A stretch of 39,599 nucleotides of DNA. It comes from Oscillospiraceae bacterium (lineage in GTDB: Bacteria > Bacillota > Clostridia > Oscillospirales > Oscillospiraceae). A program made the translations under genes and the position numbers. Below are positions 18,141 to 36,990 of this stretch, in pieces. Position 1 is the first letter of the stretch; every line of letters begins with the position of its first letter. The stretch is taken from positions 1-39,599 of the forward strand of contig JAFYVL010000013.1 of NCBI GenBank assembly GCA_017549125.1, in the 5' to 3' direction. The notes beneath the pieces are model-generated. The model did no database searches, was not told the DNA's origin, and saw only the letters and a program-made list of their open reading frames with translations.

Positions 18141-18250
18141 GAAATTGAAAACTGAAAGTTGAAAGTTAAGGTATTTCCTTCGGAAATGATTTTTAATAAG
18201 TCGCCAAAGGCGACACCTTCGTTTTCCGTTTTCAGTTTTCAGTTTTCAAC
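18141..18250. repeat. Family E palindromic element, copy 1 (inside the Fe-S operon)
   Basis: The core (18170-18217), read on the minus strand, is GGTGTCG-hairpin-CGAC, an A/T stretch, then a TTTCCGAAGGAAA hairpin and TACC. Arms are GAAAACTGAAAG-type on the left and CAGTTTTCAGTTTTCAAC on the right, imperfect inverted repeats of each other. It sits between nifS and nifU within the presumed transcript, so it is transcribed and could form an RNA structure affecting relative expression. Confidence 0.78.
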
Positions 18251-18258
18251 TGAAAATA

Positions 18259-19446
18259 TTACAAAATATACTCTCTGACTCCATTCTGCAAATCTCTCCA
18301 CACGGGGGACATATTTCGCAGCTGCTGCACCACCTTGGGCACATAGGTCAGAATATGGTCGATTTCTTCCATGGTATTATAATGGCTCAAAGACAAACGC
18401 AAAGAACCGTGTGCCACATCGTGGACACGACCGATGGCCAGCAGCACATGGCTGGGATCTAAGCTACCGGAGGTACAGGCAGAGCCGGAAGAAGCGCAGA
18501 TGCCGTGCATATCCAGAAGCAGCAACAGGCTCTCGCCCTCGATGCCCTCAAAGCAGAAGCTTACGTTACCGGGCAGACGGTTCACCGGGTCACCGTTCAG
18601 CGCACAATGGGGGATCTGGCTCAGACCTTCGATCAGCTTGTCACGCATGGCGGTGACGGTGGCGGTATGCTCCTCCATATGATCACAGGCATCCTTCAAA
18701 GCAGCCGCCAAAGCGCAGATACCGGGAATATTCTCCGTACCGGCACGCTTGCTGCGCTCCTGTGCGCCACCCTCGATCAAATTGGTCATAGGGAAGCCAC
18801 GACGGACATACAACACACCCACACCCTTAGGGCCGTGGAATTTATGGGCAGACAGGCTCAGCATGTCAATATTCTGCGCCTTCACATCAATGTGCAAATG
18901 ACCGGCAGCCTGCACCGCATCCGTATGGAAGGGTACACCGGCTTCCTTACAAATAGCACCGATTTCCCCAATGGGCAGCACAGAGCCGATCTCGTTATTG
19001 GCATACATACAGGTCACCAGGCAGGTGTCCTCACGGATGGCATCCTTCACCTGCTGTGCGGTCACATTATGACCTTCCTTCACATCCAGCAAAGTGATCT
19101 CATAACCCTCTTTTTCCAGCTTGTTCAGGGTGTGCAACACCGCATGATGCTCAAAAGCGGTGGAGATAATGTGCTTTTTATTCTTTCTTGCGCCGTAACG
19201 AGCCGCAGAAATAATGGCTTGGTTATCCGCCTCGCTACCGCCGGAAGTAAAATAAATCTCCCGGGGATCACAACCCAAGCAGGCCGCCACAGTCGCACGG
19301 GCATTTTCCAAGGCTTCCTTGGCTTCCTGGCCTGCAGAATGAAGGCTGGAGGGGTTTCCAAATACGGATTCATAATAAGGTACCATGGTCTCAATGGCCA
19401 ACTTACTCATCTTGGTCGTAGCCGCATTGTCCGCATATACAAACAT
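18259..19446 (-). CDS. nifS: Cysteine desulfurase NifS/IscS
   Basis: This 395-residue pyridoxal-phosphate enzyme removes sulfur from cysteine as a persulfide for Fe-S cluster and thio-cofactor assembly. The cofactor lysine is Lys202 in SLSAHKFHGPKG. The stacking His is in the EHHAVLH block (about 99-105). The catalytic cysteine is Cys324 in the ASSGSACTSG loop, the type found in IscS/NifS enzymes. The start ATG at 19446 follows AGGAGG at 19456-19461 (minus strand). It is the first gene of nifS-nifU-rrf2, driven by a consensus promoter with two overlapping dyads. Confidence 0.96.
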   Translation of the reverse strand: MFVYADNAATTKMSKLAIETMVPYYESVFGNPSSLHSAGQEAKEALENARATVAACLGCDPREIYFTSGGSEADNQAIISAARYGARKNKKHIISTAFEHHAVLHTLNKLEKEGYEITLLDVKEGHNVTAQQVKDAIREDTCLVTCMYANNEIGSVLPIGEIGAICKEAGVPFHTDAVQAAGHLHIDVKAQNIDMLSLSAHKFHGPKGVGVLYVRRGFPMTNLIEGGAQERSKRAGTENIPGICALAAALKDACDHMEEHTATVTAMRDKLIEGLSQIPHCALNGDPVNRLPGNVSFCFEGIEGESLLLLLDMHGICASSGSACTSGSLDPSHVLLAIGRVHDVAHGSLRLSLSHYNTMEEIDHILTYVPKVVQQLRNMSPVWRDLQNGVREYIL

Positions 19447-19469
19447 GGTATTTTCCTCCTATCTGATTT

Positions 19470-19488
19470 CCCTAGTAATTTCATAGGT
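19470..19488. promoter_or_regulatory. Candidate operator 1 of the Fe-S operon
   Basis: CCCTA, nine bases, TAGGT forms a dyad directly downstream of the -10, over the expected transcription start. It shares its half-sites and spacing with the dyad at 19504, and the centres are 34 bases apart. The Rrf2 regulator encoded in the operon is the likely ligand. Confidence 0.6.
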
Positions 19489-19517
19489 ATATTAGCACTA
19501 TCTACCTACTTTGTCAA
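19489..19517 (-). promoter_or_regulatory. Sigma-A promoter of nifS-nifU-rrf2
   Basis: On the minus strand, TTGACA (19517-19512) and TAATAT (19494-19489) are separated by 17 bases. The nifS start lies about 43 bases downstream of the -10. Confidence 0.85.
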
Positions 19518-19522
19518 TAGGT
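19504..19522. promoter_or_regulatory. Candidate operator 2 of the Fe-S operon
   Basis: ACCTA, nine bases, TAGGT is a perfect 5-bp-arm dyad that completely covers the TTGACA -35 element. A protein bound here would block RNA polymerase. Confidence 0.62.
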
Positions 19523-19532
19523 TAAAAGTTAG

Positions 19533-19759
19533 AGTGAAGTTGCTTCGCAATGAAGTATACCTAACGGTATATGAAGTTACTTCGTAATGAAGTTTTCTCC
19601 GTTGGAGAAAGTGAAGGTATGGCTAACGCCATGGATTTAAAATATATTTTTGAAATAGCAATTTCAAAAATACCATCATTGCACCAAGGGTGCAACTTCA
19701 TTTGGCTTTTGCCAAACTTCACAGCGTAGCTACTTCATTTGCCAACGGCAAACTTCACT
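19533..19759. repeat. Family E palindromic element, copy 2 (chain of hairpins)
   Basis: The left arm is a series of TGAAGT words separated by small hairpins (TTGCTTCGCAA, ATACCTAACGGTAT, TTACTTCGTAA, TTCTCCGTTGGAGAA). The right arm is a matching series of ACTTCA words separated by other hairpins (TTGCACCAAGGGTGCAA, TGGCTTTTGCCA, GCGTAGC, TGCCAACGGCA). The core (19616-19674) has GGTATGGC...GCCATGGATTTAAAAT, a TTTTTGAAA...TTTCAAAAA hairpin and TACC. A separate hairpin (TTCCAGGATATCGG with its near-complement, 19761-19795) follows. These fill the 19447-19879 gap together with the Fe-S promoter. Confidence 0.82.
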
Positions 19760-19879
19760 ATTCCAGGATATCGGGCGCAGACCGATATCTTGGAATTTGT
19801 TTCCTGAATTTTCGACTTTTGCATGGATTATTGTTCGGTCGAATGCGGCATAGTAATAGAGCAAAAAGGAGGGTTGCAC

Positions 19880-20842
19880 ATGAAAAAAACGGCATGGATG
19901 ATGGCCTTTCTTATCATCCTGATTTCCTTGCTGCCCTTGGGTGTACAAGGGGCAGAATTGATCCCGGGCGGACAGCTGATCGGTCTGGAAATGTCCACAG
20001 ACCATGTGACCGTGGCGGGCTTTGAAGAAAACAATCCAGTTGCCAAACGAGCCGGTATGCAATTGGGGGACACCATCACCCACATTGATCAAAAATCCGT
20101 CTCCTGCGCCGCCGATATCCGCACCGCTCTAAACCACTCCCAAGGCACGATCACCGTGGGCATCACCCGAAAGGGCAAGCCCATGCGTCTATCCATGAAC
20201 CCCGCCATTACCGCCGACGGCCCACGGATCGGCGTGTATTTGAAGCAAGCAGTCAGCGGCGTGGGTACTGTGACCTATTACGACCCGGAAAGCGGTGACT
20301 TTGGGGCATTGGGGCATAGTGTCAACGATACGAACGGAAAACTGCTCCCGTCCCATGGTGGCAATGCCTATGATGCGTCCATTTTGCAGGTGCGAAAGGG
20401 CAAATCCGGCAAGCCCGGTCAGCTGATGGGCACTATGAACACCGCTAAAATTCTGGGTTCTTTGGGTAAGAATACCCAGCAAGGTGTGTTTGGCTGCAGC
20501 AAAGCCGACTTTACCGGTGACCTTCTGGAAACCGCCTCTGCCAGCCAGATCCACACGGGCTCTGCCACCATCCGCTCCACAGTAGACGAAAATGGGGTAC
20601 AGGAGTATTCTGTGAAAATTCTCAAAATCTATCCAAAAGGCCGCAGCGGGGGCAGAAATATGCTGATCCAGGTCACCGACCAGCGGCTACTGGACACCAC
20701 CGGCGGCATCGTCCAAGGCATGTCCGGGTCGCCCATTATCCAGGACGGCAAGTTAATTGGCGCGGTGACCCACGTTCTGGTCAACGACCCCACCATGGGC
20801 TATGGCATTTTCATCGAAAATATGCTGGACGCCGCCGCATAA
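19880..20842 (+). CDS. spoIVB: SpoIVB-type serine peptidase (family S55)
   Basis: This 320-residue protein has an N-terminal membrane/signal segment (about 5-24), a PDZ domain (about 30-105) and a C-terminal S55 peptidase domain. The catalytic His is His146 in ALGHSVND, and the catalytic Ser lies in QGMSGSPI (Ser282 or Ser284), followed by GAVTHVLVNDPTMGYGI. In Bacillus subtilis SpoIVB is made in the forespore and triggers sigma-K activation; here it implies a spore former. The start at 19880 fits AAAGGAGGG; longer frames lack a ribosome site. The protein is about 100 residues shorter than the B. subtilis enzyme. The usual neighbour spo0A is absent: a family A repeat begins right at the stop codon. 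Confidence 0.93.
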   Translation: MKKTAWMMAFLIILISLLPLGVQGAELIPGGQLIGLEMSTDHVTVAGFEENNPVAKRAGMQLGDTITHIDQKSVSCAADIRTALNHSQGTITVGITRKGKPMRLSMNPAITADGPRIGVYLKQAVSGVGTVTYYDPESGDFGALGHSVNDTNGKLLPSHGGNAYDASILQVRKGKSGKPGQLMGTMNTAKILGSLGKNTQQGVFGCSKADFTGDLLETASASQIHTGSATIRSTVDENGVQEYSVKILKIYPKGRSGGRNMLIQVTDQRLLDTTGGIVQGMSGSPIIQDGKLIGAVTHVLVNDPTMGYGIFIENMLDAAA

Positions 20843-20988
20843 TTTCCAATTTGTCGCTTTGCCTCCCCTGTAGGGGAGGTGCCCCAAAGGGGCGGAGGGG
20901 TTTACGGAGATTGAGATCTGCTAACCCCTCAGTCGCTTCGCGACAGCTCCCCTGCAGGGGAGCCTTGTGTGCGATAAATTGGAATTTA
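20841..20988. repeat. Family A palindromic repeat, copy 4, with outer inverted ends
   Basis: The core (20862-20964) is nearly identical to the copy at 5551. Outer arms AATTTCCAATTTGTCGC (20841-20857) and GCGATAAATTGGAATTT (20971-20987) are inverted repeats with few mismatches, giving a 148-bp unit. The left end overlaps the last bases of the spoIVB stop codon. The rest of the 20843-21146 gap holds a stem-loop and the toxin-antitoxin promoter. Confidence 0.85.
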
Positions 20989-20994
20989 CAAAAA

Positions 20995-21041
20995 ACAGGG
21001 GAAGGTTCTATGTCCTAAATGTACACAGAACCTTCCCCTGT
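20995..21041. terminator. Long perfect stem-loop, possible terminator
   Basis: A 15-bp perfect stem (ACAGGGGAAGGTTCT, 20995-21009, with its complement at 21027-21041) closes a 17-base loop. A run of A precedes it and CGATTTT follows. It may terminate spoIVB or be a further small repeat. The large loop is unusual for a terminator. Confidence 0.5.
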
Positions 21042-21084
21042 CGATTTTAACAAACTGGTGCATCCGTTTTTCCTGTTGTCCTTA

Positions 21085-21113
21085 TTGACATAGTAGGCAA
21101 ATTTACATATAAT
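21085..21113 (+). promoter_or_regulatory. Consensus promoter of the toxin-antitoxin operon
   Basis: A perfect TTGACA (21085-21090), a 17-base spacer and a perfect TATAAT (21108-21113) precede the antitoxin by about 33 bases. The A/T-rich TAATATTA dyad just after the -10 could be an autoregulatory site for the antitoxin. Confidence 0.88.
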
Positions 21114-21146
21114 AATATTAGAATTTGACTACAAGGAGGATTCGTT

Positions 21147-21413
21147 ATGAATATCCGCCCTTCTGCTGCCATCCGGCAGAACTATAACGAGATTGCAGAA
21201 CTGTGCAGAAAAACCCAAACTCCCATCTACCTCACCAAAAACGGTGAAGGGGATTTGGTCGTCATGGACATCGAAAGCTTTACCCGCCGGGAAAAAATGC
21301 TCCAACTGCGTGAAAACCTCTTGGCTGTGGAAGAAGATCGCGCTATGGGGCGCAAAGGCTGCACCATTGATGAATTGGACAGCTTTTTGGACCAGATTCT
21401 GGATGAGGCATAA
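21147..21413 (+). CDS. Phd/YefM-type antitoxin
   Basis: This 88-residue protein has the typical Phd/YefM layout: an N-terminal DNA-binding part (MNIRPSAAIRQNYNEIAELC, TPIYLTKNGEGDLVVMD) and an acidic helical C-terminus expected to wrap the toxin. It is preceded by AAGGAGG and a consensus promoter, and ends 3 bases before the toxin. These antitoxins normally repress their own promoter. The identification rests on the N-terminal pattern plus the adjacent toxin. Confidence 0.88.
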   Translation: MNIRPSAAIRQNYNEIAELCRKTQTPIYLTKNGEGDLVVMDIESFTRREKMLQLRENLLAVEEDRAMGRKGCTIDELDSFLDQILDEA

Positions 21414-21416
21414 CCC

Positions 21417-21722
21417 ATGAAATACAATGTGATCATCTCTGACAGAGCCAAAGAAATGCTGGGTATGCACATCCGATTTTTAGCCCAGGTCAATAAAGCC
21501 GCCGCCACAAAGCTGAAGAATCGGTTTATGGAAGAAATGCGCTCCCTGCAGGAATTGCCCCATCGTTATCCTTTCTTTAACGAAAACTACATCCCAGCCA
21601 ACAAGTATCACAAATTATATGTAGAAAATTGGTATCTTGTACTGTATCAGATCAAGGACAGCACCGTCTGTGTGGATTGGATCGTGGATTGCAGACAAGA
21701 CTACCAGTGGTTACTGAGATAA
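21417..21722 (+). CDS. ParE/RelE-superfamily toxin
   Basis: This 101-residue basic protein starts MKYNVIISDRAKEML and continues with the helix-turn-helix of RelE/ParE folds (residues about 15-45). LQELPHRYPFF, NKYHKLYVENWYLVLYQI and the final VDWIVDCRQDYQWLL are the usual strand and C-terminal elements. ParE members poison DNA gyrase and RelE members cleave mRNA; which applies cannot be read here. The stop TAA overlaps an ATG for the downstream reductase (TAATG), making a three-gene arrangement. Confidence 0.87.
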   Translation: MKYNVIISDRAKEMLGMHIRFLAQVNKAAATKLKNRFMEEMRSLQELPHRYPFFNENYIPANKYHKLYVENWYLVLYQIKDSTVCVDWIVDCRQDYQWLLR

Positions 21723-22513
21723 TGTCTATGGTGTTAGTAACAGGTGCAACAGGGTTTGTGGGACAGACCATCATGAAATTATGCAAAGATACGGTTGCCT
21801 GTCCATCCCTGCAGAATTTAACGGAAGAACAAGTTTATAAAATCATCCGGGACAGCGGCGCAGATACCATCATTCACACCGCTGCCATTGCGGACACCGG
21901 CGTATGCGCCGCCGATCCCGAGGCCTCTTACCAAGCCAATGTGCAGCTGCCGGTATGGATCGCCAATGCCGCCCAAGGTGCAAAGCTGATTTGCTTCAGC
22001 TCTGACCAGGTATACAGCGGCACGGAAGCAGAAGGCCCTTATACAGAGAATATGGCAAAACCGGGCAATGTGTATGCCGCCCACAAGCTGGAAATGGAAC
22101 AGCGGGTTCTGGACATGGCCCCGGATAGTGTAATGCTCCGGGCAGAGTGGATGTATGACTACTATCTTAAGAAGCCCAACTATTTTATGAATATCCTCCA
22201 TGCCACCCAGGCGCTGGGCTTCAGTTCCCGGCAGTACCGGGGAATCACCTATGTAAAAGAGGTGGCCCGGAATATGGAGGCGGTAATAGGCTTGCCCGGG
22301 GGCATTTATAACTTCGGCAGCGAAACCCAAAAATCCATGTACCAGATCACCCGGGAATTTTTAGGGTATTTAGGCAAGGAGATTGCCCTGGAAGATGCGC
22401 CACCTCGGCATAATCTATGGATGAACTGCGAAAAGGCAAGAAAATTCGGTGTGCGTTTCTCCAGCGTGGAAGATGGGCTGAAACAATGCGCAAAAGATCA
22501 TAATTTGCATTAA
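21722..22513 (+). CDS. NAD(P)-dependent sugar-nucleotide reductase-like protein (RmlD/SDR)
   Basis: This 263-residue extended short-chain dehydrogenase has the Rossmann motif GATGFVG (about 7-13), the active-site pair in YAAHK (Tyr-x3-Lys), and FSSDQVYSG, typical of RmlD-like dTDP-4-dehydrorhamnose reductases. The C-terminal substrate domain is present. No other rhamnose genes are nearby, so the substrate is unknown. Start: ATG at 21722 overlaps the toxin stop, and a second in-frame ATG is at 21728; both lack a clear ribosome site, so coupling to the toxin is likely. A longer frame from 21629 runs inside the toxin and is unlikely. It ends before a strong terminator. Confidence 0.85.
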   Translation: MSMVLVTGATGFVGQTIMKLCKDTVACPSLQNLTEEQVYKIIRDSGADTIIHTAAIADTGVCAADPEASYQANVQLPVWIANAAQGAKLICFSSDQVYSGTEAEGPYTENMAKPGNVYAAHKLEMEQRVLDMAPDSVMLRAEWMYDYYLKKPNYFMNILHATQALGFSSRQYRGITYVKEVARNMEAVIGLPGGIYNFGSETQKSMYQITREFLGYLGKEIALEDAPPRHNLWMNCEKARKFGVRFSSVEDGLKQCAKDHNLH

Positions 22514-22516
22514 AAT

Positions 22517-22545
22517 ATCCGGGATGCGATGCATCCCGGATTTTT
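22517..22545 (+). terminator. Rho-independent terminator after the reductase gene
   Basis: An 11-bp stem (ATCCGGGATGC, 22517-22527, with its complement at 22531-22541) closes a GAT loop and runs into five T. Confidence 0.9.
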
Positions 22546-22547
22546 AC

Positions 22548-22574
22548 GGAACGCTGTTCGCAGCGTTCCCTACC
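22548..22574. repeat. Solo hairpin ending CCCTAC, related to family B ends
   Basis: GGAACGCTG-TTCG-CAGCGTTCCC followed by TAC. Read on the other strand it is GTAGGG plus a hairpin, like the ends of the family B elements, but with different hairpin sequence and no second end. Confidence 0.55.
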
Positions 22575-22581
22575 ATAAATG

Positions 22582-23250
22582 TTATGTGCGTTTAGAGAAA
22601 TAGGATTTGCCATAGACCGCAATCTCTGCCACCAGGCACACAGGCAAGGCCGCAAAGAAATCCACCGCAGAGTGCTGTTTAATGAACATGGTGGACAAAC
22701 AGATCATGATCACCGCAAAGACCACAAAGATCTTCCACCAGGTATAGGCCTCCTTCTGGCGCACCCACACGGAAGCAATGCCGATGGAATAGGCCACGTG
22801 CAAAGAAGGACACACACCGGTGTTGGTGTCAAAGCTATAGATGAACCCTACCAGGTCCGACAGGATATTCTCCCGGGGAAACACCTCCGGACGCAGATCC
22901 TGTCTGGTGGGATAGAGTATGTAAACCATCATGGCGCAGATCTGGGTAATGATAATGTAGGTCTGCAGGCATTTAAAACTCTTTACATCATAGAATAGAA
23001 ACCAGCCCAGAGAGATCACCACCAGCAAATACCAGAACACATAAGGGATCACAAACCATTCGTTGAAGGGGATCGCATCGTCCAGCCACATTTTCACCGG
23101 GGCGCAATTTTCTGCCGGGATCAGATTCTCCGTAAGGAAGTACATGATAAAGTAGCCCACCCAACCCAACAGCAACAGCAGGTGGGAGAACTGGGGATCT
23201 TTCAATTTGGACAGCCGCAGCTGCTTATAGTCCACGACGGGTGTTTTCAT
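22582..23250 (-). CDS. PAP2-superfamily membrane phosphatase or phosphotransferase
   Basis: This 222-residue protein has about five transmembrane helices. It shows the PAP2 motifs: YPTRQDLRPEVFP (first block), CPSLHVA (second block, with the catalytic-type His), and STMFIKQHSAVDFFAALPVC (third block, with His and Asp). PSLHVA instead of PSGH resembles the PAP2_3/inositol-phosphotransferase-like branch. It likely removes or transfers phosphate on lipid headgroups. Its ATG lies inside the end of the upstream acyltransferase gene (26-base overlap), so the two are coupled and probably act on the same lipid pathway. Confidence 0.85.
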   Translation of the reverse strand: MKTPVVDYKQLRLSKLKDPQFSHLLLLLGWVGYFIMYFLTENLIPAENCAPVKMWLDDAIPFNEWFVIPYVFWYLLVVISLGWFLFYDVKSFKCLQTYIIITQICAMMVYILYPTRQDLRPEVFPRENILSDLVGFIYSFDTNTGVCPSLHVAYSIGIASVWVRQKEAYTWWKIFVVFAVIMICLSTMFIKQHSAVDFFAALPVCLVAEIAVYGKSYFSKRT

Positions 23251-23998
23251 GGGTCGTCTCCTTATTGGAAGGATAATATTTTTTCGGGATGTTGCGGTAA
23301 GGCACGACCCGATGCTCCGGCAGCGACTCTGCCACCCGGGTAATTTCGTCCATCAAGTAATCGCAGAGTTTTCTGCGCTGGGTATCCATAGGCTCTGCCG
23401 GATCGTAGGCCACCGGCTCACCAAAATGCACCTGCCGCAACCCGGGGGCAATGTACATAGGCACAAATTTCAGCACCTTGCCGGTGCGCTTGTAATACAG
23501 CTTTGCCACATCCAGAAATTTATCCTGGAAATCATAGACAATATGGTTATGCTTCACATCATGCTCCGGGAAGATCACCACCGATGTTCCCTCGTCCAGC
23601 ATACGGACGGTGGTCTTGAAGGTGGACAGTAGCCGGGCATCCCGGTACACAGGGATGGTGTTGGCATTGTTGAACAGGCACACGGAGAAGGGTGTGATCA
23701 CATAGGACAGGATCTTATAAAACCAATGGGTGTACTTGGGCTTTTGAGACCAGAAATCCTGAAAGGCATAGGAAGGCACTTCCTTCCAATGCATCATCTG
23801 GGAGGCACACCAGGTATAGCGCTCCATGGGCATATAAAATTCGCAGATAATCGGGCTGTTCATCTGGGTATGGTTACCCACCAGCACCACCGGCTCATCC
23901 GGCAGGTTTTCTGCGCCGCAGACCCGGGTCTTGGGATAGACCAAACGGATGATCCCCCGCAGGATCTTATATGTAAAGGTGGTTTTCTTCTGCTCCAT
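23225..23998 (-). CDS. PlsC-like acyltransferase with altered HX4D motif
   Basis: This 257-residue protein resembles the lysophosphatidate acyltransferase fold: VVLVGNHTQMNSPII corresponds to block I and VVIFPEHD to block III. The catalytic HX4D is HTQMNS here, so serine replaces the aspartate. The activity may therefore differ or be lost, unless this branch uses another residue. The start at 23998 fits an AAGGA site (about 24008-24012); a longer frame from 24094 lacks one. It overlaps the PAP2 gene by 26 bases, suggesting joint phospholipid or glycolipid remodelling. Confidence 0.78.
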   Translation of the reverse strand: MEQKKTTFTYKILRGIIRLVYPKTRVCGAENLPDEPVVLVGNHTQMNSPIICEFYMPMERYTWCASQMMHWKEVPSYAFQDFWSQKPKYTHWFYKILSYVITPFSVCLFNNANTIPVYRDARLLSTFKTTVRMLDEGTSVVIFPEHDVKHNHIVYDFQDKFLDVAKLYYKRTGKVLKFVPMYIAPGLRQVHFGEPVAYDPAEPMDTQRRKLCDYLMDEITRVAESLPEHRVVPYRNIPKKYYPSNKETTHENTRRGL

Positions 23999-24104
23999 AA
24001 TGACCGATCCTTTCAGCTTCCTTTTATTGTGCCATAATATCAAAGATTTTGCAACCGGAAATGAACAAATTTTAAACTTTCCCCCAAAATGCATTTTGCC
24101 GTAC

Positions 24105-24197
24105 TGTAGGGGAGGGTCAATGACCCTCCCGCTACCCTAACCATTCCACAGCGGTAAAAATCGAAGGTTTCGGGAAGGTCAGTGACCTTCCCCTACA
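24105..24197. repeat. Family B palindromic repeat, copy 2
   Basis: This 93-bp element runs from TGTAGGGG to CCCCTACA, with a hairpin at each end (GGGAGGGTCAATGACCCTCCC-like on the left, GGAAGGTCAGTGACCTTCC on the right). The internal CAGCGGTAAAAATCGAAGG corresponds to the middle of the copy at 9042. It lies between the acyltransferase start and the lipoprotein promoter. Confidence 0.85.
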
Positions 24198-24243
24198 ATG
24201 GGGGAATTGGAAAAGTTTACCAACAAAAGACAAAAGTTTCTAC

Positions 24244-24272
24244 TAGACAAACATACAAATTTATGCTATATT
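24244..24272 (+). promoter_or_regulatory. Promoter of the lipoprotein gene
   Basis: TAGACA (24244-24249), 17 bases, then an extended -10 (TGC-TATATT, -10 at 24267-24272), just before GGAGGTGAG and the start ATG. Confidence 0.72.
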
Positions 24273-24293
24273 GATTTTGGAGGTGAGTATTCT

Positions 24294-25118: not shown

Positions 25119-25129
25119 TCACACATACC

Positions 25130-25162
25130 CCCGGAGGCGGCCTTCGCCTCCGGGAAATTTTT
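25130..25162 (+). terminator. Rho-independent terminator after the lipoprotein gene
   Basis: A perfect 10-bp stem (CCCGGAGGCG, 25130-25139, with its complement at 25145-25154) closes a 5-base loop and is followed by AAATTTTT. Confidence 0.85.
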
Positions 25163-25182
25163 GTATACGGGTATTTTGCGCT

Positions 25183-25999: not shown

Positions 26000-26004
26000 A
26001 TACT

Positions 26005-29922: not shown

Positions 29923-30033
29923 CAAACTGAAAACTGATAACTAAAAACTATGGTATTTGCTATACCCGTATATTTCAATCCGTCGGCAAAGCCGACACAT
30001 TCGTTTTCAGTTTTTCGTTTTCAATTTTCAACT
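29923..30033. repeat. Family E palindromic element, copy 3
   Basis: The core (29952-29998), on the minus strand, is GTGTCGGCTTTGCCGACGG, then ATTGAAAT, then a TATACGGGTATA hairpin region ending ATACC. Arms are ACTGAAAACTGATAACTAAA on the left and CGTTTTCAGTTTTTCG plus TTTTCAATTTTCAACT on the right. It lies between the U32 gene and maf. Confidence 0.8.
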
Positions 30034-30064
30034 ATTCCATTTTGGAATCTGAAAGGAATGCTTT

Positions 30065-30625
30065 ATGGCTATCATTTTGGCATCCCAGTCGCCCAGGCGG
30101 CAGGAGCTTATGGGGCTTTTCCGGAAGCCCTTCACCGTACAGGTGGCAAATATCGACGAGAGCATGGATATGCAGGCAGATCCTGCCCGGGAAGTGGCCA
30201 GAGTCAGCGCCATGAAAGCCCGTGCCGTCCAGCGCCAAAAAGGTGATATTGTGATCGCTGCGGACACCATTGTGGTCTGCGACGGTCAGATCCTTGGCAA
30301 ACCCACCGATGAAGCCCACGCATTCCGGATGCTGCGGATGCTGTCGGGCAAGACCCACCAGGTCATGACCGGTCTGACCGTATTGAAAGACGAAACCATC
30401 GTGACCCACACCGAGGTCACGGATATCCGCTTCCGTCCTCTGTCTGATGCAGAGATCACGGACTATATTGCCACCAAAGACCCCATGGACAAAGCCGGAA
30501 GCTATGGCATCCAAAACGGTGCGGCTTTGTTTGTGGAGGGCATTACGGGAGACTATTTTAATGTGGTCGGTCTGCCGGTGTGCCGCCTGGGGCTTATTCT
30601 GAAAACCATGGAGGAAACGAAATGA
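30065..30625 (+). CDS. maf: Maf-family nucleotide pyrophosphatase
   Basis: This 186-residue protein hydrolyses non-canonical or modified nucleoside triphosphates to monophosphates and has been linked to septum formation. The N-terminal signature ASQSPRRQEL (about 6-15) is diagnostic, with further conserved blocks AADTIVV, LGKP and DKAGSYGIQ. It opens the cell-shape cluster, a common position in Firmicutes. AAAGGAA precedes the ATG. Its TGA overlaps the mreC ATG by four bases (ATGA), so the genes are coupled. Confidence 0.96.
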   Translation: MAIILASQSPRRQELMGLFRKPFTVQVANIDESMDMQADPAREVARVSAMKARAVQRQKGDIVIAADTIVVCDGQILGKPTDEAHAFRMLRMLSGKTHQVMTGLTVLKDETIVTHTEVTDIRFRPLSDAEITDYIATKDPMDKAGSYGIQNGAALFVEGITGDYFNVVGLPVCRLGLILKTMEETK

Positions 30626-31452
30626 AGTATTTTTTCACCCGACGCGTGAAGATAGTGCTGATCATTACAGTGCTATTGGCGGTGATCCTGGGTGTTCTGG
30701 GCAGCTTCACCGGCTTAGGCCTACCGAAAATGGTCGTCCAAGGTGTGCTGACTCCCATTCGTGCCGGTGTCAGTAAGCTGACCAGCAGCGCAGAGGATCT
30801 CTACGATTATATTTTCTCCTATGAGTCCATGGCCGCAGAAAATGAATCTCTCAAGCGCAAAATCTCCGAAATGGAGGATGCCGCCCGTCAAAAGGATGCC
30901 CTGTCTCAGGAAAACCAGCGGCTGCGTGCCCTTTTGGATCTGCGCACCGGTCACTACGACTACAAATTTACCGATGGCTACATTATCTCCTGGGATTCCG
31001 GAGATTGGTCCAACACCTTCACCATTAACCGTGGCTCCAGCTCCGGTATTGAAGTGAATATGTGTGCTGTCACCGCCAATGGCGAATTGGTGGGTCTGGT
31101 CAGCGAGGTTGGCCCTAATTACGCTGTGATCAAGAGCGTTTTGGACTCCTCCCTGGAAATTTCCGCCACCATTTCCGCCTCCGGCTACAATGGCATGGTC
31201 AAGGGTGGCTACACCTCCGATCTGCCCAATATGCTGCGGATGAATTATCTGGCCAGTAACGCCACCATCCACATCAACGACCAGGTGGTTACCACCGGTT
31301 CTACGGTATATCCCCGTGGCCTGGTGATCGGCAAGGTGGTGGATGCAGGCTATGACGATACCGGTGTTGCCAAGTACGCAATTCTGGAACCTGCGGTGGA
31401 TATTCAGGAGCTGGCGCAAGTCTTTATTATTACCGAGTACGATGTTGAGTGA
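30622..31452 (+). CDS. mreC: Rod-shape-determining protein MreC
   Basis: This 276-residue elongasome protein has one N-terminal transmembrane helix (about 10-30), a coiled-coil (about 68-110, rich in Glu, Lys, Asn and Leu) and a beta-rich extracellular domain containing GLVSEVGPNYAVIKSVLD and YPRGLVIGKVV, typical of MreC. It links cytoplasmic MreB to extracellular wall enzymes. The start at 30622 fits GAGGAA and overlaps the maf stop; the frame from 30580 lies within maf. The usual mreB is not next to it, so MreB must be encoded elsewhere. Confidence 0.95.
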   Translation: MKYFFTRRVKIVLIITVLLAVILGVLGSFTGLGLPKMVVQGVLTPIRAGVSKLTSSAEDLYDYIFSYESMAAENESLKRKISEMEDAARQKDALSQENQRLRALLDLRTGHYDYKFTDGYIISWDSGDWSNTFTINRGSSSGIEVNMCAVTANGELVGLVSEVGPNYAVIKSVLDSSLEISATISASGYNGMVKGGYTSDLPNMLRMNYLASNATIHINDQVVTTGSTVYPRGLVIGKVVDAGYDDTGVAKYAILEPAVDIQELAQVFIITEYDVE

Positions 31453-31457
31453 GGCTT

Positions 31458-32036
31458 ATGGCAAAAAAGTACGAATTTAAACAGGATAAGCAAGGCACCG
31501 GATTCTGGAGTAAGCTTTATGTGACCCCGAAACAACGGCGAACCATTTTGCGGTGGGCTTTGTATGCCTTTGTGATCATGGTGCTGTCCGTGGTGCAGGA
31601 TGTGATCCTGTGCCGAATCCAGATTTTCGGTGCTACCACCGATCTGGTTCCCTGCGGCATTGTGCTGATCTGTCTGGTGGAGGGTGTCCAGCGAGGATGC
31701 ATCTTTGCCTTGATGGCATCTTTGTTCCACCTGTTTTCCGGTGGCGCACCGGGGGTATATTCCATGGTGTTTATTACGGTACTGGCCGTGTACGGCTCTA
31801 TCTTCCGGGAATCCTTCCTGCAAGAAGGTTTCTGGGCGGCTTTGCTGTGCTGCGCCGGTGCAATGGTGCTGTATACCATGCTGAATTTTGCCATGGGACT
31901 CTTTTTGCAGCTGACCATTCCCAGCCGTGGTCTGGGCTTCCTGCTCACAGCGGTTATGACGCTGCCCATTGTCCCCATTGTGTACCCCATTTGCACGTCC
32001 ATCGCCCGTCTTGGAGGTGACATATGGAAAGAATAA
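31458..32036 (+). CDS. mreD: Rod-shape-determining protein MreD
   Basis: This membrane protein of about 192 residues has a basic N-terminus (about 1-33) and five hydrophobic segments. Its position between mreC and PBP2, together with the pattern AFVIMVLSVVQDVILCRI near the first helix and a TIPSRGLGFLLTAVMTLPIV end, identifies it as MreD, a poorly conserved family. Start: ATG 31458 is chosen, with GTGAGG just before it at short spacing; a GTG at 31449 overlapping the mreC stop is the alternative. It overlaps the PBP2 gene by 13 bases. Confidence 0.88.
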   Translation: MAKKYEFKQDKQGTGFWSKLYVTPKQRRTILRWALYAFVIMVLSVVQDVILCRIQIFGATTDLVPCGIVLICLVEGVQRGCIFALMASLFHLFSGGAPGVYSMVFITVLAVYGSIFRESFLQEGFWAALLCCAGAMVLYTMLNFAMGLFLQLTIPSRGLGFLLTAVMTLPIVPIVYPICTSIARLGGDIWKE

Positions 32037-34084
32037 CCCGATTCCGTGCCTATCTGCTGCTGTTCTTCTTTGTGGCAATTATCGCTATTTTTGCCTTCCG
32101 TATGTACGATCTGCAGATCATCGAAACTGACGGCAACACCTATAACGCATCCACCTTTACCACCAAAACCCGTGTCCGTGCCGCCCGTGGCGAGATTCTG
32201 GACAGAAACGGTGTGGTGCTGGTGTCCAACCGTGCCAGTTACGACCTGGTGATCAACCACTATGTGTTGCTCAGCGCAGACGGAACAAACCAATACCTCT
32301 ACAACCTGATCCAGAAATGCCAGGAAGTGGGTGTGGAGTATAATGAAAGCTTCCCGGTGTCCCGGGAGCGTCCCTTCACCTATACCCTGGAGGAGTACAG
32401 TTCTGTAAAACAGGGCTATTTCCAGAAATTCCTGGCTTATATCGGTGATATTGACTCGGATATTACCGCACCTTTGCTCATTGATCAGCTTCGGGAGATC
32501 TACGACATTCCTGCCAGCTGGACAGACGACGAAGCCCGATTGGTCATCGGTCTGCGCTATGAACTTTCCCTGCGAAACTGCATCACCAGCCTGGGCAATT
32601 TCGTGTTCGTCACCGACGCTGACGACGAGGAACTGTCTGCGGTGGTGGAATTGAATATTCCCGGCATGAACCCGGAAGCCTCCACCGTCCGTGAGATCCA
32701 TACGGAATATGCCGCCCATATCATTGGCTATGTGGGTGACATGACCCCGGAACAATGGAAGCAATACAAGGAAGTGGACGGCTACGAAATGGATGCCCAG
32801 ATCGGTCAATCCGGTCTGGAAAAGGAATACGAAGCCTTCCTCCACGGTGTGGACGGCTGGCGAGTGGACACGGTAGATGCCAAGGGTACGCTGATCTCCT
32901 CTTACTATGAGACAGAACCCAAGGCTGGCAAGAACGTAGAATTGAGTATCGACATCAATCTGCAGATGGTTGCCGAGGATGCCCTGGCGGCTGTGACCGA
33001 AAAACTGCATTCTCAGCCCACAGGCTATAAGGGACAGGATGCCGCCGGTAGTGCGGTGGTTGTGATGAATATGCAGGGTCAGGTACTGGTCAGCGCCAGC
33101 TACCCCACCTACGATCTGAACAACTTCTCCTCCCACTACCAGGAAATTCTGGATGCCAAGGACAACCCCCTGTTTAACCGTGCCTTGATGGCAACCTATC
33201 CCCCCGGCTCTACCTACAAGCCCACCATGGTCATTGCGGGTATCGACTCCGGTGTAATCACCGCCGAATATCCCATTTACGATGCCAGCATTTATAAAAA
33301 ATATGCGGGCTTTGAACCCAAATGTCTCTACTGGACCACCTACGGTATGTCCCACGGCGACGTGAATGCCATGACCGCCCTGCAGAAATCCTGTAACTAC
33401 TATTTCTACTGGATAGGCGACCGCATTCGTCTGTCGGCCATGGATGCCACCGCCAAGGGCTTAGGTCTGGGTGAACCCACCGGTGTGGAATTACCGGAAA
33501 ACATTGGCCACCGTGCCAACGAAGAGACCAAGGCCAAGCTCCATCCGGAGGATGGCGCATGGTATCAGGGCGACCAGATTCTGGCGGCCATTGGTCAATC
33601 GGACAACAGCTTCTCTCCCATGCAGCTTTGTGTCTATGCCACCACCCTTGCCAACCGTGGTAACCGCTACAAGGCCACCTTCCTGAATCGTGTGGTCTCT
33701 TCCGATTACTCCATGGCACTTTTGACCAGCGAGCCTGTGATCCTCAGCAGTATGGAGATCTCTGACTCTGCTTACCGGGCTTACCGGGAGGGTATGCGCA
33801 TGGTTGCCCATGTACAAAGCGGCACGGCATACTCCACCTTTAAAAACTACCCCATTACCATTTGCGCCAAAACCGGCACAGCCGAAGTCACCGGTCAGCG
33901 TTCTGCAAACGGCGCATTTATCTGCTTCGCACCCTACGATGATCCCCAGATCGCCATTGCGATTTACGGCGAGAAGGCCGGTGCCGGTAGCACGCTGGCA
34001 ACCGTAGCCAAGGAGATTCTGGACACCTACTTCCAGCTGGACGAGCCGGAACAGGTGGTCATCAACGAAAACCAGCTTAGCTGA
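32024..34084 (+). CDS. mrdA: Penicillin-binding protein 2 (elongation transpeptidase)
   Basis: A 686-residue class B penicillin-binding protein. One N-terminal helix (about 8-28) anchors it, a pedestal domain follows, beginning RAARGEILDRNGVVL, and the transpeptidase domain has all three catalytic motifs: STYK with active Ser396, SCN near residues 456-458, and KTG with Lys616. It cross-links peptidoglycan during cell elongation with MreC/MreD and a RodA glycosyltransferase (not in this window). Translation is coupled to mreD by overlap. Its stop overlaps an ATG at 34084, but the next gene more likely starts at 34105. Confidence 0.95.
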   Translation: MERITRFRAYLLLFFFVAIIAIFAFRMYDLQIIETDGNTYNASTFTTKTRVRAARGEILDRNGVVLVSNRASYDLVINHYVLLSADGTNQYLYNLIQKCQEVGVEYNESFPVSRERPFTYTLEEYSSVKQGYFQKFLAYIGDIDSDITAPLLIDQLREIYDIPASWTDDEARLVIGLRYELSLRNCITSLGNFVFVTDADDEELSAVVELNIPGMNPEASTVREIHTEYAAHIIGYVGDMTPEQWKQYKEVDGYEMDAQIGQSGLEKEYEAFLHGVDGWRVDTVDAKGTLISSYYETEPKAGKNVELSIDINLQMVAEDALAAVTEKLHSQPTGYKGQDAAGSAVVVMNMQGQVLVSASYPTYDLNNFSSHYQEILDAKDNPLFNRALMATYPPGSTYKPTMVIAGIDSGVITAEYPIYDASIYKKYAGFEPKCLYWTTYGMSHGDVNAMTALQKSCNYYFYWIGDRIRLSAMDATAKGLGLGEPTGVELPENIGHRANEETKAKLHPEDGAWYQGDQILAAIGQSDNSFSPMQLCVYATTLANRGNRYKATFLNRVVSSDYSMALLTSEPVILSSMEISDSAYRAYREGMRMVAHVQSGTAYSTFKNYPITICAKTGTAEVTGQRSANGAFICFAPYDDPQIAIAIYGEKAGAGSTLATVAKEILDTYFQLDEPEQVVINENQLS

Positions 34085-34104
34085 TGCACAACAGGAGAAA
34101 CCAG

Positions 34105-35412
34105 ATGAATATTTACGAAAAAATCATTGCCTCTGCCCAGGCACAGGCGGAAGAATTGACCGCTCTGCGTCGGGATCTGCATAAGCACGCAGAAACCGGC
34201 TGGCTGGAAATGCGCACCACCTCCATCATCGCCAGAAAGCTGACAGATCTGGGCTATGAGATTCTCCTGGGCGAGGATGTATGTCTGAAGGAAAGCCGTA
34301 TGGGTGTTCCCTCCCAGAAGGTGCTGGAGGAAGCTTACCAGCGTGCCATCGACCAGGGTGCTGACCCGGAGTTTGTGGAAGCTACCCGTGGGGGTATGAC
34401 CGGTGTGATCGGTATCCTCCGCTGTGGCGAAGGCCCGGTGCTGGCCATGCGCTTTGATATGGATGCGCTGGGCGTGATCGAATCGGATGAACCCGACCAT
34501 TTCCCCACCGCCCAGGGCTTTGCTTCCATTAACCATGGTGCTATGCATGCCTGCGGTCATGATGGTCATACCTGCGTGGGTCTGGGTGTTGCCAAGACGC
34601 TGATGCAGATCAAGGATCAGCTTCACGGCACGATCAAGCTGATCTTCCAACCTGCGGAAGAGGGTGTCCGTGGCGCAAAATCCATTGTGGATAAGGGGCA
34701 TTTAGAGGGTGTGGACTATGTGCTGGGCGCCCATGTGAGCAATCTGACCAAGAATGGCTGTGATTTAGTGCCCGGTGCGTTCGGTTCTCTGTCCACCAGT
34801 AAATACGATGTGGTGTTCCGGGGTAAATCCGCCCATGCCGGTGTAGCCCCCCAGGAAGGCAATAATGCTTTGCTGGCAGCGGCTACGGCTCTGCTGAATC
34901 TGCAGGCCATTCCCCGTAGCGGCGGCGGTGCGACCCGTATCAACGTGGGTAAGCTGGTGGGCGGCACAGGCCGTAACGTGATCGCCGATGAGGCCTTCAT
35001 GGAGATCGAGGTTCGTGGCGATACCAGCGAACTGAACGAGTATATGAGCCAGTACGCTCTGCGGATCTTGGAGAATGCCGCAGCCATGCACCAATGCACC
35101 GTGGAGATCCGTCTCATGGGCGCATCCTGCTCCATTACCAGCGACAAGGCGCTGGCAGAGCGGATCGCACAGCTGAGCAAGACCCATCTGGATGTGACCG
35201 TATCCGACAATGTAATGATCAAGAGCGGCGGCAGCGAGGACTATGCTTATATGATCACCCGTGTGCAAGAACAAGGGGGACAGGGTGTGTTCATGCGCAT
35301 CCATGCGGATATGGCAGGCCCTTCTCACAACCGCAGATTCGACTTTGATGAGTCCTTCATCCCCAGAGGTATTAAAATCTTCTGCGGCGCAGCCTATGAC
35401 ATTTTGAAATAA
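34105..35412 (+). CDS. abgA: M20 amidohydrolase, AbgA-like
   Basis: This 435-residue metallopeptidase of the M20D/amidohydrolase family has metal-ligand motifs ACGHDGHT (Cys150, His152) and FQPAEEG. The features CLKESRMGVPS, GFASINHGAMHACGHDGH and SGGSEDYAYM follow E. coli AbgA (436 residues), a subunit of p-aminobenzoyl-glutamate hydrolase. No abgB partner is present, so the substrate may be another N-acyl or aminoacyl amide, possibly wall-derived given the operon. The start at 34105 fits AGGAG (34093-34097) at 7 bases; the ATG at 34084 overlaps the PBP2 stop but has no ribosome site. A terminator follows. Confidence 0.86.
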   Translation: MNIYEKIIASAQAQAEELTALRRDLHKHAETGWLEMRTTSIIARKLTDLGYEILLGEDVCLKESRMGVPSQKVLEEAYQRAIDQGADPEFVEATRGGMTGVIGILRCGEGPVLAMRFDMDALGVIESDEPDHFPTAQGFASINHGAMHACGHDGHTCVGLGVAKTLMQIKDQLHGTIKLIFQPAEEGVRGAKSIVDKGHLEGVDYVLGAHVSNLTKNGCDLVPGAFGSLSTSKYDVVFRGKSAHAGVAPQEGNNALLAAATALLNLQAIPRSGGGATRINVGKLVGGTGRNVIADEAFMEIEVRGDTSELNEYMSQYALRILENAAAMHQCTVEIRLMGASCSITSDKALAERIAQLSKTHLDVTVSDNVMIKSGGSEDYAYMITRVQEQGGQGVFMRIHADMAGPSHNRRFDFDESFIPRGIKIFCGAAYDILK

Positions 35413-35419
35413 AAAATGA

Positions 35420-35452
35420 TGCCATCCCGATTCACCCGGGATGGCAATTTTT
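35420..35452 (+). terminator. Rho-independent terminator of the maf-abgA cluster
   Basis: A 10-bp stem (TGCCATCCCG, 35420-35429, with its complement at 35437-35446) closes a 7-base loop and is followed by ATTTTTAT. Confidence 0.85.
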
Positions 35453-35486
35453 ATAGGCGATTTCATTCCTATCCGACTCCCCTACC

Positions 35487-35819
35487 GGGTAATGCTGTCA
35501 ACTTAAGCCTTGTCCCCCTCTGAGAGGGGGATGTCAGCGAAGCTGACAGGGGGAGTGTCCTACACGATAAGCACCAATCCTACGACACTCCCTCAGTCAA
35601 AAATCGGCTCTTTGGCTCCCCTTGTAGGGGTAAGCGAAGCGCAGTCGGCGGTAGTGAATGACAGTCCGGTGGACTGTCAGAGCCGCCGACCGGGCTCGCC
35701 GCAGCGAGCTGTCAGCGATAGCTGACTGAGGGGTGTTTGGACACCAAGATCTGCACACCCCTCCGCCCCTTCGGGGCACCTCCCCTACAGGGGAGGCTTT
35801 GGGGACAAGGCTTAATGCC
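35487..35819. repeat. Family A repeat, copy 6: large mosaic
   Basis: This is the largest repeat block of the window. It begins GGGTAATGCTGTCAAC then TTAAGCCTTGTCCCC, continues with the GGGGGATGTCAGCGAAGC subtype (to about 35558), a CTACACGATAAGCACC spacer, a TCAAAAATCGGCTCTTT junction and a second unit like the one at 17061. It ends GGGGACAAGGCTTAA, so TTAAGCCTTGTCCCC and GGGGACAAGGCTTAA bound it as inverted ends. A 76-base insertion lies inside the second unit. It fills most of the 35413-35908 gap; 35820-35908 shows nothing recognisable. Confidence 0.8.
35631..35706. repeat. 76-base palindromic insertion inside a family A unit
   Basis: Compared with the copy at 17061 (...GTAGGGG directly joined to AGCTGTCAGC...), this copy has 76 extra bases at that junction. 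The insertion contains nested hairpins: TGACAGTCC-GGT-GGACTGTCA inside CGGCGG...CCGCCG. Confidence 0.7.
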
Positions 35820-35908
35820 CTACAGGGGATGCTTTATAACAAAAGAAACTGTAACCATGCTGAATTTTTCCAGAAAACTTATGAATTTTCATGTCAGAAT
35901 CAGATTAT

Positions 35909-36544
35909 TCAATCATATGCCTGCTCTATTTTCTTCAGTTCATCCCAGGTATGGAGCAATGATTTCCAATCTTGAATTGGTTTCCCATCATCACCTACCC
36001 ATCCCCTTTGATCAAAATAAGACCAAAAATCTACAGCGGATACATAGGTTAACCTCTGCTCCTGGCAATAGGCATCAATGGCCACCACCGTGGGGTTTCC
36101 ATTTTTGTCCACATGCAGATTAGGAGTACGAGTAGGATTCTGAGTATGATTATGATTATGACTATGATTATGATTACGATTATGAGTATGAGTATGAGGG
36201 GTATTTCGCTCCATTTCGGTGCATTCCGGTGCATTTCGCTGCATTTCGGTGCATTCCGGTGTCCCTTGTGTACTCTCCTCTGCCATAGTATCTGGTTCCG
36301 TATGCGTTGCCAAGATGCCGTTAGCCTTATTTATGGCGCAAACCTCCCGATAACGGTCTAATTGGGTCTTGAGTACACCAAACATCAATTCCACCGCAAA
36401 ATCATCCCCATCATAGACAGCTCCATAAAACCGATAACCAAAGGCTGCCCGCATCAATGCGCCAAACTGGGCATCGGTCAATTTTTCTGTGCTCATATAT
36501 ACATCCGGAAATAACACCAAGGTGTCCTGCTTTCTTCTGGCCAT
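35909..36544 (-). CDS. DUF6291-type phage-like protein with internal repeats
   Basis: This 211-residue protein has an N-terminal part (about 1-75; DTLVLFPDVYMSTEKLTDAQ, then LKTQLDRYREVCAINKANG) that resembles DUF6291, found in phage or plasmid replication regions. The C-terminal part (about 155-205; DFWSYFDQRGW, DWKSLLHTWDELKK) is like replisome-organiser tails. Between them are two copies of a 10-residue unit (PECTEMQRNA, PECTEMERNT) and a His/Asn run (HTHTHNRNHNHSHNHNHTQN). The start at 36544 fits AAGGAGGA. A longer frame from 36637 would read through the family E repeat just upstream. It stands alone, flanked by repeats, and may be a remnant of a mobile element or a recruited gene. Confidence 0.68.
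   Translation of the reverse strand: MARRKQDTLVLFPDVYMSTEKLTDAQFGALMRAAFGYRFYGAVYDGDDFAVELMFGVLKTQLDRYREVCAINKANGILATHTEPDTMAEESTQGTPECTEMQRNAPECTEMERNTPHTHTHNRNHNHSHNHNHTQNPTRTPNLHVDKNGNPTVVAIDAYCQEQRLTYVSAVDFWSYFDQRGWVGDDGKPIQDWKSLLHTWDELKKIEQAYD
36147..36199. repeat. Hexanucleotide microsatellite inside the DUF6291 gene
   Basis: About eight near-copies of TGATTA/TGACTA/TGAGTA (CATAAT-type on the coding strand) encode the alternating His/Asn/Thr run. Six-base units keep the frame when copy number changes, so length would vary between strains without breaking the gene. Confidence 0.85.
36207..36266. repeat. Two 30-base tandem units inside the DUF6291 gene
   Basis: CGCTCCATTTCGGTGCATTC and following bases (36207-36236) repeat at 36237-36266 with few changes. 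They encode the duplicated PECTEM decapeptide. Confidence 0.8.
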
Positions 36545-36560
36545 AAAATCCTCCTTAGGT

Positions 36561-36652
36561 AATGCAAAATGCAGAATGCAAAATGCAAAATTGATGTATC
36601 GCCTTTGGCGATGATTTGAAATAAATTTTCGAAGCAATTATGCATTTTTTCT
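36561..36652. repeat. Family E palindromic element, copy 4 (truncated right arm)
   Basis: The left arm is a run of TGCAAAA/TGCAGAA words. The core is ATGTATCGCC-TTTGGCGATG, then ATTTGAAAT, then a second, degenerate hairpin (AATTTTCGAAG). Only one TGCATTTT word remains of the right arm. It lies directly upstream of the ribosome site of the DUF6291 gene. Confidence 0.7.
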
Positions 36653-36720
36653 TTATTATAACATGCCAAAAGTCTGTTTTTTTCCCACCTTGTAATGACC
36701 TTGTAAATTGAGAAAAGAAA

Positions 36721-36760
36721 AAGCCCGAAAACCCTTGCCAATCAAGGACTTCCGGACTTT
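36721..36760. terminator. Long imperfect stem-loop, possible terminator
   Basis: AAGCCCGAAAACCCTTG (36721-36737) pairs with CAAGGACTTCCGGACTT (36743-36759) with four mismatches or wobbles around a CCAAT loop. A-rich sequence precedes it and TTCCATTTTTT follows. It could terminate in either direction. No gene on the plus strand ends near it, so its role is unclear. The flanking 36653-36720 and 36761-36855 show nothing else. Confidence 0.5.
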
Positions 36761-36855
36761 TCCATTTTTTTCGTTTCAGAGAACATTTTCAAAAATTACC
36801 CCTAAATTTTCCCCATTTTTGCCAAAAGGTACCGCATTGGTCCCATGGAATCTGG

Positions 36856-36990
36856 GAATGAATAATGAATAATGAAATCGCTTCGCTGATGAATAATGAA
36901 TAATTGTGGTGTCGGCCATGCCGACGGATTTAAAATCATGCCGCCTTGCGGCATACCTTAATTATTCACTATTCAATATTCATCATTCAT
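36856..36990. repeat. Family E palindromic element, copy 5 (best-preserved core)
   Basis: The left arm is GAATAATGAATAATGAA-type words interrupted by an ATCGCTTCGCTGAT hairpin. The core (36908-36957) is GGTGTCGGCCATGCCGACGG, then ATTTAAAAT, then CATGCCGCCTTGCGGCAT and ACC. The right arm is AATTATTCACTATTCAATAT and following ATTCAT words, the inverted counterpart of the left arm. Confidence 0.85.

Follow-up and report, generated by a model that had tools for sequence, protein, structure and literature searches.

Palindromic elements with heptameric arms in an Oscillospiraceae genome: probable open-reading-frame-less relatives of S23 intervening-sequence elements

The function of the S23 proteins of 23S rRNA intervening sequences (IVS) is described as unknown, and in the IVS of Coxiella tandem GACAGAT heptamers are reported to precede the S23 open reading frame (ORF) (PMC4990558). 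Heptamers are also described between bacterial genes, such as TAACTGA in Beggiatoaceae (PMC4679880), GGGAATC in Xanthomonas and GGGGAYT in Nostoc, with 70 and 75 convergent (inverted) pairs of GGGAATC in two Xanthomonas genomes, and heptameric repeats are reported to be over-represented in many bacterial genomes, the literature on them being scant (PMC4692102). Neither 'S23' nor 'four helix' occurs in the accessible text of PMC4679880 or PMC4692102, and among the best-ranked open-access matches (subscription papers and preprints lay outside the scope) none joined heptamer repeats with S23 save for the one IVS in PMC4990558. Here we analyse five palindromic elements in a 39,599 bp stretch of an Oscillospiraceae genome (hereafter the window, which is the entire contig C82), and propose a probable kinship with S23/intervening-sequence elements, of which they would be non-autonomous relatives lacking an ORF. 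This proposal joins two puzzles, the heptamers being the arms and S23 the gene, and such a link may help explain the recurrence of seven-letter repeats in bacterial genomes.

One of the five elements lies in the iscS–iscU gap. In a relative, the same gap (L096/L198) contains heptamer arms around a small ORF reading like an S23 protein, and for this reason PF05635 (23S_rRNA_IVP, "four helix bundle") was searched next. Four PF05635 genes are present in the genome of the window, all on contigs other than C82, where no match was found; matches occur in 41/61 genomes of the genus, in 77/291 genomes of the class at E 1e-10, and in 0/14 control genomes. A profile built from seven S23 proteins matches the structures 2rld (1e-49) and 2gsc, XCC0516 (7e-7), with five chains each. 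All four S23 genes of the genome are flanked by repeated words, in one case (L202) simple GAAAACT heptamers on both sides, like those of window elements 1 and 3, and in the other three word–hairpin arrays. The same two kinds make up the 33 S23 loci analysed in the genus, 24 of them flanked on either side by simple complementary heptamer arms and 9 with word–hairpin arrays, mainly upstream. Arms are thus of a shared type: window elements 1, 3, 4 and 5 resemble the simple-arm loci and element 2 the array kind, and the S23 gene of L368 (genome G016) sits between arrays bearing the window's own TGAAGT word. Flank complementarity exceeded the 99th percentile of shuffles (22.0) at 24/33 genus loci, namely 23/24 with simple arms and 1/9 with arrays, and the corresponding percentile (26.2) at 7/29 class loci; for 74 control ORFs the 99th percentile was 20.8 and the maximum 23. 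Strict period-7 arrays adjoin the S23 gene at 20 of 72 loci in the genus, 8 of 69 in the class and 9 of 12 on plasmids or phages, compared with 1/71 control ORFs; for any other period between 4 and 13, strict arrays number 0–1 beside S23 genes.

Insertion sites are shared as well. The iscS–iscU gap holds an S23 element in L096/L198 and an ORF-less one in the window, and L207 likewise has an S23 element between the U32 peptidase gene and maf, the window's counterpart there being ORF-less. S23 elements occupy the gap between the AICARFT/IMPCHase (purH) and GARS (purD) genes at 11 loci (L208–L210, L212, L216, L217, L220, L221, L224, L225 and L312); the ten that are on the tree bear three word classes within one larger protein clade, with a separate branch for each word; repeated use of this site or a change of words in situ would account for the pattern. 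One class S23 element with heptamer arms (L250) lies inside 23S rRNA and is a classical IVS; its genome contains four copies with identical scores, and a single one of these was placed.

The word follows both the S23 clade and the host genome. Pairs of S23 loci sharing a repeated flank 6-mer increase from 2.9% at 20–30% identity to 45.6% at 60% or more, and across host families word sharing at an identity of at least 0.4 was 13.1% versus 8.3% after permutation (p 2e-4, a statistic that ignores kinship). Words on the tree were read by eye and flank 6-mer words computed; since 120/122 loci possess such a computed word, only its sharing is informative. The words of ORF-less elements matched those of S23 elements in the same genome with a mean score of 31.8 versus 22.7 permuted (p 1e-4, again ignoring kinship), with strong matches (38 or more) in 9/21 genomes; in this comparison, as in the arm-pairing test below, each genome was represented by one core, its best match, and the duplicate locus L380 (identical with L211) was dropped. 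Cores were found in 30/41 genomes with S23 and in 3/20 without (Fisher p 2.4e-5; 61 genomes, kinship ignored, gene and core counts for this and the other presence tests hand-tallied from search listings).

The folded core between the arms has the architecture GGT–hairpin–linker around ATTTRAAAT–hairpin–ACC, with the GGT/ACC closing present in most copies and a linker able to form a tiny hairpin of its own, as in the fold of element 5. The original prediction of five elements with one core in both orientations holds as to their presence and places, all five being recovered by a covariance model (R1) at E 2e-16 to 0.001. Its literal core pattern, GGTRT-N-ATTTRAAAT-N-ATACC, fits only two of them (19616 and 36908) among five matches genome-wide, and the pattern read backwards matches nowhere in the whole genome. 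As a finder the literal pattern was rejected as too strict, the cores at 18170–18217 and 29952–29999 having a variant linker and that at 36595–36642 lacking GGT/ACC. Folded as DNA, elements 1 to 5 all beat their shuffles (z -5.1, -4.8, -4.2, -2.7 and -6.3), element 2 having been folded in part only and the fold of element 4 being equalled by 3/200 shuffles. That the core hairpins differ in sequence yet stay paired was borne out on 47 cores, 18 from this genome and 29 from other genomes: hairpin 1 has at least 5 pairs in 44/47 and hairpin 2 in 39/47, with 13 and 14 distinct inner five-pair stems, respectively, all Watson–Crick. As the stem parse admits paired stems only, the informative part of this result is the number of cores that parse. 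Loops are TTT or TTC in 31/45 parsed cases of hairpin 1 and GAA in 24/42 of hairpin 2.

The arms of elements 1, 3, 4 and 5 are tandem heptamers, a feature absent from the original prediction, and those of element 2 form a word–hairpin array as at array-type S23 genes. Seven is the prevailing period, with 22 such arrays in 624 kb of this genome, whereas any other period in the range 5–12 gave 0–6. Complementarity of the two arms, also claimed earlier, is clear in elements 1, 3 and 5 (scores 30, 29 and 28) and weak in element 2 (20); it does not extend to element 4 (12), of which the right arm is absent. A test of the proposed covariation of arms showed that the left and right arms of one core match each other better than arms taken from different genomes (31.2 vs 17.1, permutation p 1e-4; 29 other genomes), and the 18 cores of this genome behave similarly (26.4 vs 17.0). 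Stretches of genus genomes drawn blind to the elements contain 7 period-7 arrays in 393 kb from 11 S23-positive genomes and 0 in 333 kb from 14 S23-negative ones (p 0.023), a contrast that was set aside because the seven come from three genomes.

A dispersed family, as a covariance search had been expected to reveal, was indeed found. Model R1 is based on six cores, half of which belong to the window, after an earlier alignment of 11 cores had proved too gapped; C49, C87, C5 and the window cores at 19616 and 36595 were left out, and the latter two are therefore independent recoveries. In its own genome R1 marks at least 18 distinct places at E 0.07 or better, six of which are the training sequences (150/402 candidates scored). 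Copies occur in 42/73 genomes of the genus sample, a genus near Candidatus Faecousia, and outside the genus in 3/46 genomes (E 1e-4 to 8e-4). Arms are not freely swapped, contrary to the interchangeability that had been supposed: the 40 copies fetched from G063, G002, G037 and G040 fall into a single subfamily in each genome, marked by a word peculiar to it, and by eye 38 of them carry that word, the exceptions being L268 and L303, just as the word follows the clade among S23 elements. L303 (G037:C35) is a chimeric ORF-less core with GAAAGTG-type words, foreign to its subfamily, in its left arm and GCAAAAT-type words in its right arm. In the G002 copies L284–L296, many heptamer elements are nested in a larger palindrome ending ACCTTCCCCC...GGGGGAAGGT.

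Paired heptamer arms also flank S23 genes beyond the class. Plasmid S23 genes of Nostoc (three), Dolichospermum, Planktothrix, Euhalothece and Bernardetia have arms scoring 40–78, with words including AATTCGT, AATTCGC, AATCGTA, GGTCACT and GATTAGT; pairing is weaker (23–25) at S23 genes of Treponema, Chlorohelix and Anabaena, and no paired arms were found at the S23 genes of Monoglobus (L384, whose match contains a stop; 17) and of a phage record (L395; 14). At three sites, occupied plasmids of Nostoc or Anabaena could be set against unoccupied homologues: 432 bp stand where the homologue has 198 bp at the first, 467 (453 in L441) where it has 329 at the second, and 589 (843 in L392) where it has 64 at the third. 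The flanks are close, those of the first site being 96.7% identical to a further plasmid from the same strain. The three sites show no evident target duplication, and target sequence is absent from them; one insertion splits the gene for a DNA cytosine methyltransferase, and a cas1 gene is shorter (972 vs 1044 nt). The unoccupied homologues are on other plasmids and so are not direct ancestors, and later deletion of target is possible. The word was also looked for by eye in the targets; one of those replaced (L442/L443) has CAATTCG close to its left edge, the two others show nothing clear, and this was judged to be chance. Arm length varies, and the cases point both ways on the earlier idea of a copying process that may rewrite arms: each arm of L441 (Nostoc) is shorter by one heptamer (3/3 vs 4/4), and L444 (Planktothrix) lacks three heptamers in one arm only. 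At L391 a scripted count gave 4 words on the left and 5 on the right, one right count falling outside the arm on reading. The plasmid S23 elements L384, L388, L391, L392, L393 and L394 are associated in position with defence or DNA-modification genes, being placed between cas2 and cas1, within a DNA methyltransferase gene, or next to DISARM drmD, N-6 methylase and type I restriction genes.

In the explanation that we favour, an element would consist of a heptamer-word arm, a payload and a complementary arm, the payload of a full element being a single gene for an S23 (PF05635) four-helix-bundle protein and that of the window elements a folded two-hairpin core. The kinship of the palindromes with S23 elements is the part of this that we hold with considerable confidence. 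The S23 protein would bind repeats of its own word and act in trans on S23 and ORF-less elements alike; whether S23 does recognise the word we consider an even question. Because the element would encode no catalytic enzyme of its own, a folded single-stranded copy would probably be pasted in by host replication or repair, which is the weakest step, and insertion would replace a stretch of the target in place of making a target-site duplication. Such movement by replacement through host machinery appears doubtful to us. On a wider view, offered tentatively, S23 genes may define a mobile class that crosses phyla and has no transposase, integrase or reverse transcriptase of its own, in which clade-specific word arms would be both identity tag and substrate, and ORF-less elements would parasitise the S23 of their word. 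If true, many bacterial heptameric repeats would be arms of such S23-type elements.

Several results weigh against the favoured explanation. At E 0.01, R1 found nothing in 725 kb of the blind-drawn stretches from 25 genus genomes, 11 of them S23-positive, and the period-7 arrays in such stretches came from only 3/11 S23-positive genomes. No pair of occupied and unoccupied sites was found for an ORF-less element. Clearly paired arms within 130 nt are missing at 22/29 class S23 loci, and only 5/33 genus loci exceed the 99th percentile obtained when left and right arms are mixed across loci, because words are shared among loci. Furthermore, 12/21 genomes have no strong match between core and S23 words, and the core's own genome ranked first in only 6/21; three S23-negative genomes hold cores, and in 11 S23-positive ones no core was found. 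The conserved core is unlike a remnant of an S23 gene, so the ORF-less elements need not be deletion derivatives. Shared ancestry may underlie some of the associations of word, core and S23, and inheritance of entire elements may account for some of the link between word and protein.

Other origins have to be considered. Small intergenic palindromes in both orientations recall repetitive extragenic palindromic (REP) sequences and bacterial interspersed mosaic elements (BIMEs), mobilised by a Y1 (HUH; REP-associated tyrosine, RAYT) transposase. The genome of the window holds one Y1 gene, Y1 and core numbers show a weak rank correlation (0.31, p 0.035), and 29/42 parsed loops of hairpin 2 are GNA triloops (GAA, GCA or GTA), which suit folded single-stranded DNA. 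Presence of Y1 is nevertheless not significantly tied to cores (12/17 vs 13/29 genomes, Fisher p 0.13), inspection of the foot of the core by eye revealed no GTAG-type tag, and heptamer arms whose words are specific to the element are not a known feature of REPs; we regard this origin as highly improbable. Presence of reverse transcriptase is not significantly tied to cores either (p 0.77; both tests over 46 genomes, kinship ignored, at an E limit of 1e-6, compared with 0.001 for S23), and on presence neither gene was retained as a partner. The shared trans-acting gene that had been anticipated thus has a counterpart in S23, an associated gene, and not in a Y1 transposase. Stems that stay paired despite sequence change, in elements adjoining genes, would also be expected of structured RNAs or terminator-like regulatory elements that are immobile and maintained by selection on the transcript. 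A scan of the window gave 0 Rfam matches at the gathering threshold, however, many orthologous iscS–iscU gaps of relatives are devoid of such an element, and mismatches in the arms have no bias towards G.U wobble on either strand (58 vs 66 at 39 S23 loci, 37 vs 33 at 34 cores), so that nothing indicates RNA-level selection on the arms. The two hairpins of the core agree with the earlier suggestion of selection for folding, which finds no such support in the arms, and an RNA origin is unlikely.

It seems similarly unlikely that the repeats maintain themselves neutrally, with slippage expanding the heptamer, quasipalindrome template switching keeping the arms complementary, and no mobile element involved. 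Word variants inside one array and the equal one-heptamer difference in both arms of L441 would agree with this, but similar whole elements are dispersed in G063, G002, G037 and G040, words are common to related S23 elements across host families, and the arm difference in L444 is one-sided; slippage and template switching may still act on arms once inserted. A stronger contender is that arms and cores are moved by a host enzyme with S23 as a frequent passenger or regulator. No catalytic domain is known in S23, and several genomes hold more ORF-less elements than S23 genes (G002, for example, has 44 cores and a single S23 match), whereas the co-variation of word and clade is harder to explain in this way, though inheritance of whole elements could yield part of it. 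We regard this as a serious possibility, if not the one we would expect.

Part by part, the five elements are as follows. Element 1, in the iscS–iscU gap, has a left heptamer arm at 18145..18169 (plus strand; word GAAAACT/GAAAGTT, similar to the arm beside the S23 gene L202 of the same genome), a core at 18170..18217 (minus strand) formed by the hairpin GTCGCC-TTT-GGCGAC, a linker and the hairpin ATTTCC-GAA-GGAAAT (R1 E 2.2e-16, a training sequence), and a right complementary arm at 18218..18249 (plus). Element 2, between iscS and spoIVB, is entirely on the plus strand: its left array (19535..19615) has TGAAGT words alternating with small hairpins, in architecture and word as in the arrays at the S23 genes L228, L308, L336 and L368, its core (19616..19674) has a long second hairpin and matches the literal pattern (R1 E 0.0011, outside the training set), and its right array (19675..19758) has ACTTCA words with hairpins. 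Element 3, between the U32 peptidase gene and maf, comprises a left heptamer arm at 29924..29951 (plus; GAAAACT/GATAACT), a core at 29952..29999 (minus) with a partly decayed second hairpin (R1 E 1.7e-13, a training sequence), and a right complementary arm at 30000..30031 (plus). The last two elements lie in the gap between the DUF6291 gene and gidB, with all their parts on the plus strand. Element 4 has a left heptamer arm of AATGCAA/AATGCAG at 36561..36594, no right arm, and a decayed core without GGT/ACC closing at 36595..36642 (R1 E 9.4e-7, outside the training set). In element 5, a left heptamer arm of GAATAAT with one small hairpin inserted (36857..36907) is followed by a core with a ATTTAAAAT mini-hairpin between its two hairpins (36908..36957; a literal match and R1 training sequence) and by a right complementary arm, ATTATTCA, at 36958..36993.

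The assembly amounts to 2.29 Mb and is 71.5% complete; among IscS relatives with named records, two are from Candidatus Faecousia (Oscillospiraceae), with 84% and 83% identity. The Pfam scan took in 29 of the 88 listed ORFs of the window, of which four gave no match, and none encodes a transposase, in line with the earlier statement that none is nearby. Judged by the gene matches in the window, together with the Rfam result, the elements adjoin protein genes and not 23S rRNA helices. A second palindromic family, whose feet read GTAGGGGAGG/GTAGGGGAGC and whose ends read CCTCCCCTAC/GCTCCCCTAC, is present in the window (14 exact matches of feet and ends), at 1713, 5559, 9043, 17071, 20870, 24106, 27548, 35779, 37031 and other positions. 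Hexamer and 10-mer tandem repeats (GATTAT, ATTTCGGTGC) occupy 36118–36261 inside the ORF with the DUF6291 match.

Compared with known systems, the window elements resemble miniature inverted-repeat transposable elements (MITEs) and REP elements as short, non-coding, dispersed palindromes, and differ from them in having no significant association with Y1 by presence, no target-site duplication seen, and heptamer arms. The short tandemly repeated repetitive (STRR) heptanucleotides of cyanobacteria are heptamer repeats too. Within the P6b region of trnL, stem-loops of one repeat class have repeatedly been replaced by those of another (PMC4476775), and by likeness of description such repeat-class stem-loops, with STRR, might be tied to S23 elements. 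The intergenic heptamers of Beggiatoaceae, Xanthomonas and Nostoc are similarly tandem and between genes, but the articles treat regulatory or G-quadruplex (G4) roles (PMC4679880, PMC4692102), whereas here the heptamers are arms of elements. The closest likeness is to the 23S rRNA IVS with S23p of Coxiella and Leptospira, in the S23 protein, the complementary terminal arms and, in Coxiella and here in L250, the heptameric repeats by the ORF (PMC4990558); heptamers next to the payload are reported there for one IVS, that of Coxiella, and are not a published defining feature of IVS. Unlike these IVS, the window elements sit between protein genes and have a conserved folded core and no PF05635 ORF, and for the latter reason they are filed as ORF-less relatives and not as IVS proper.

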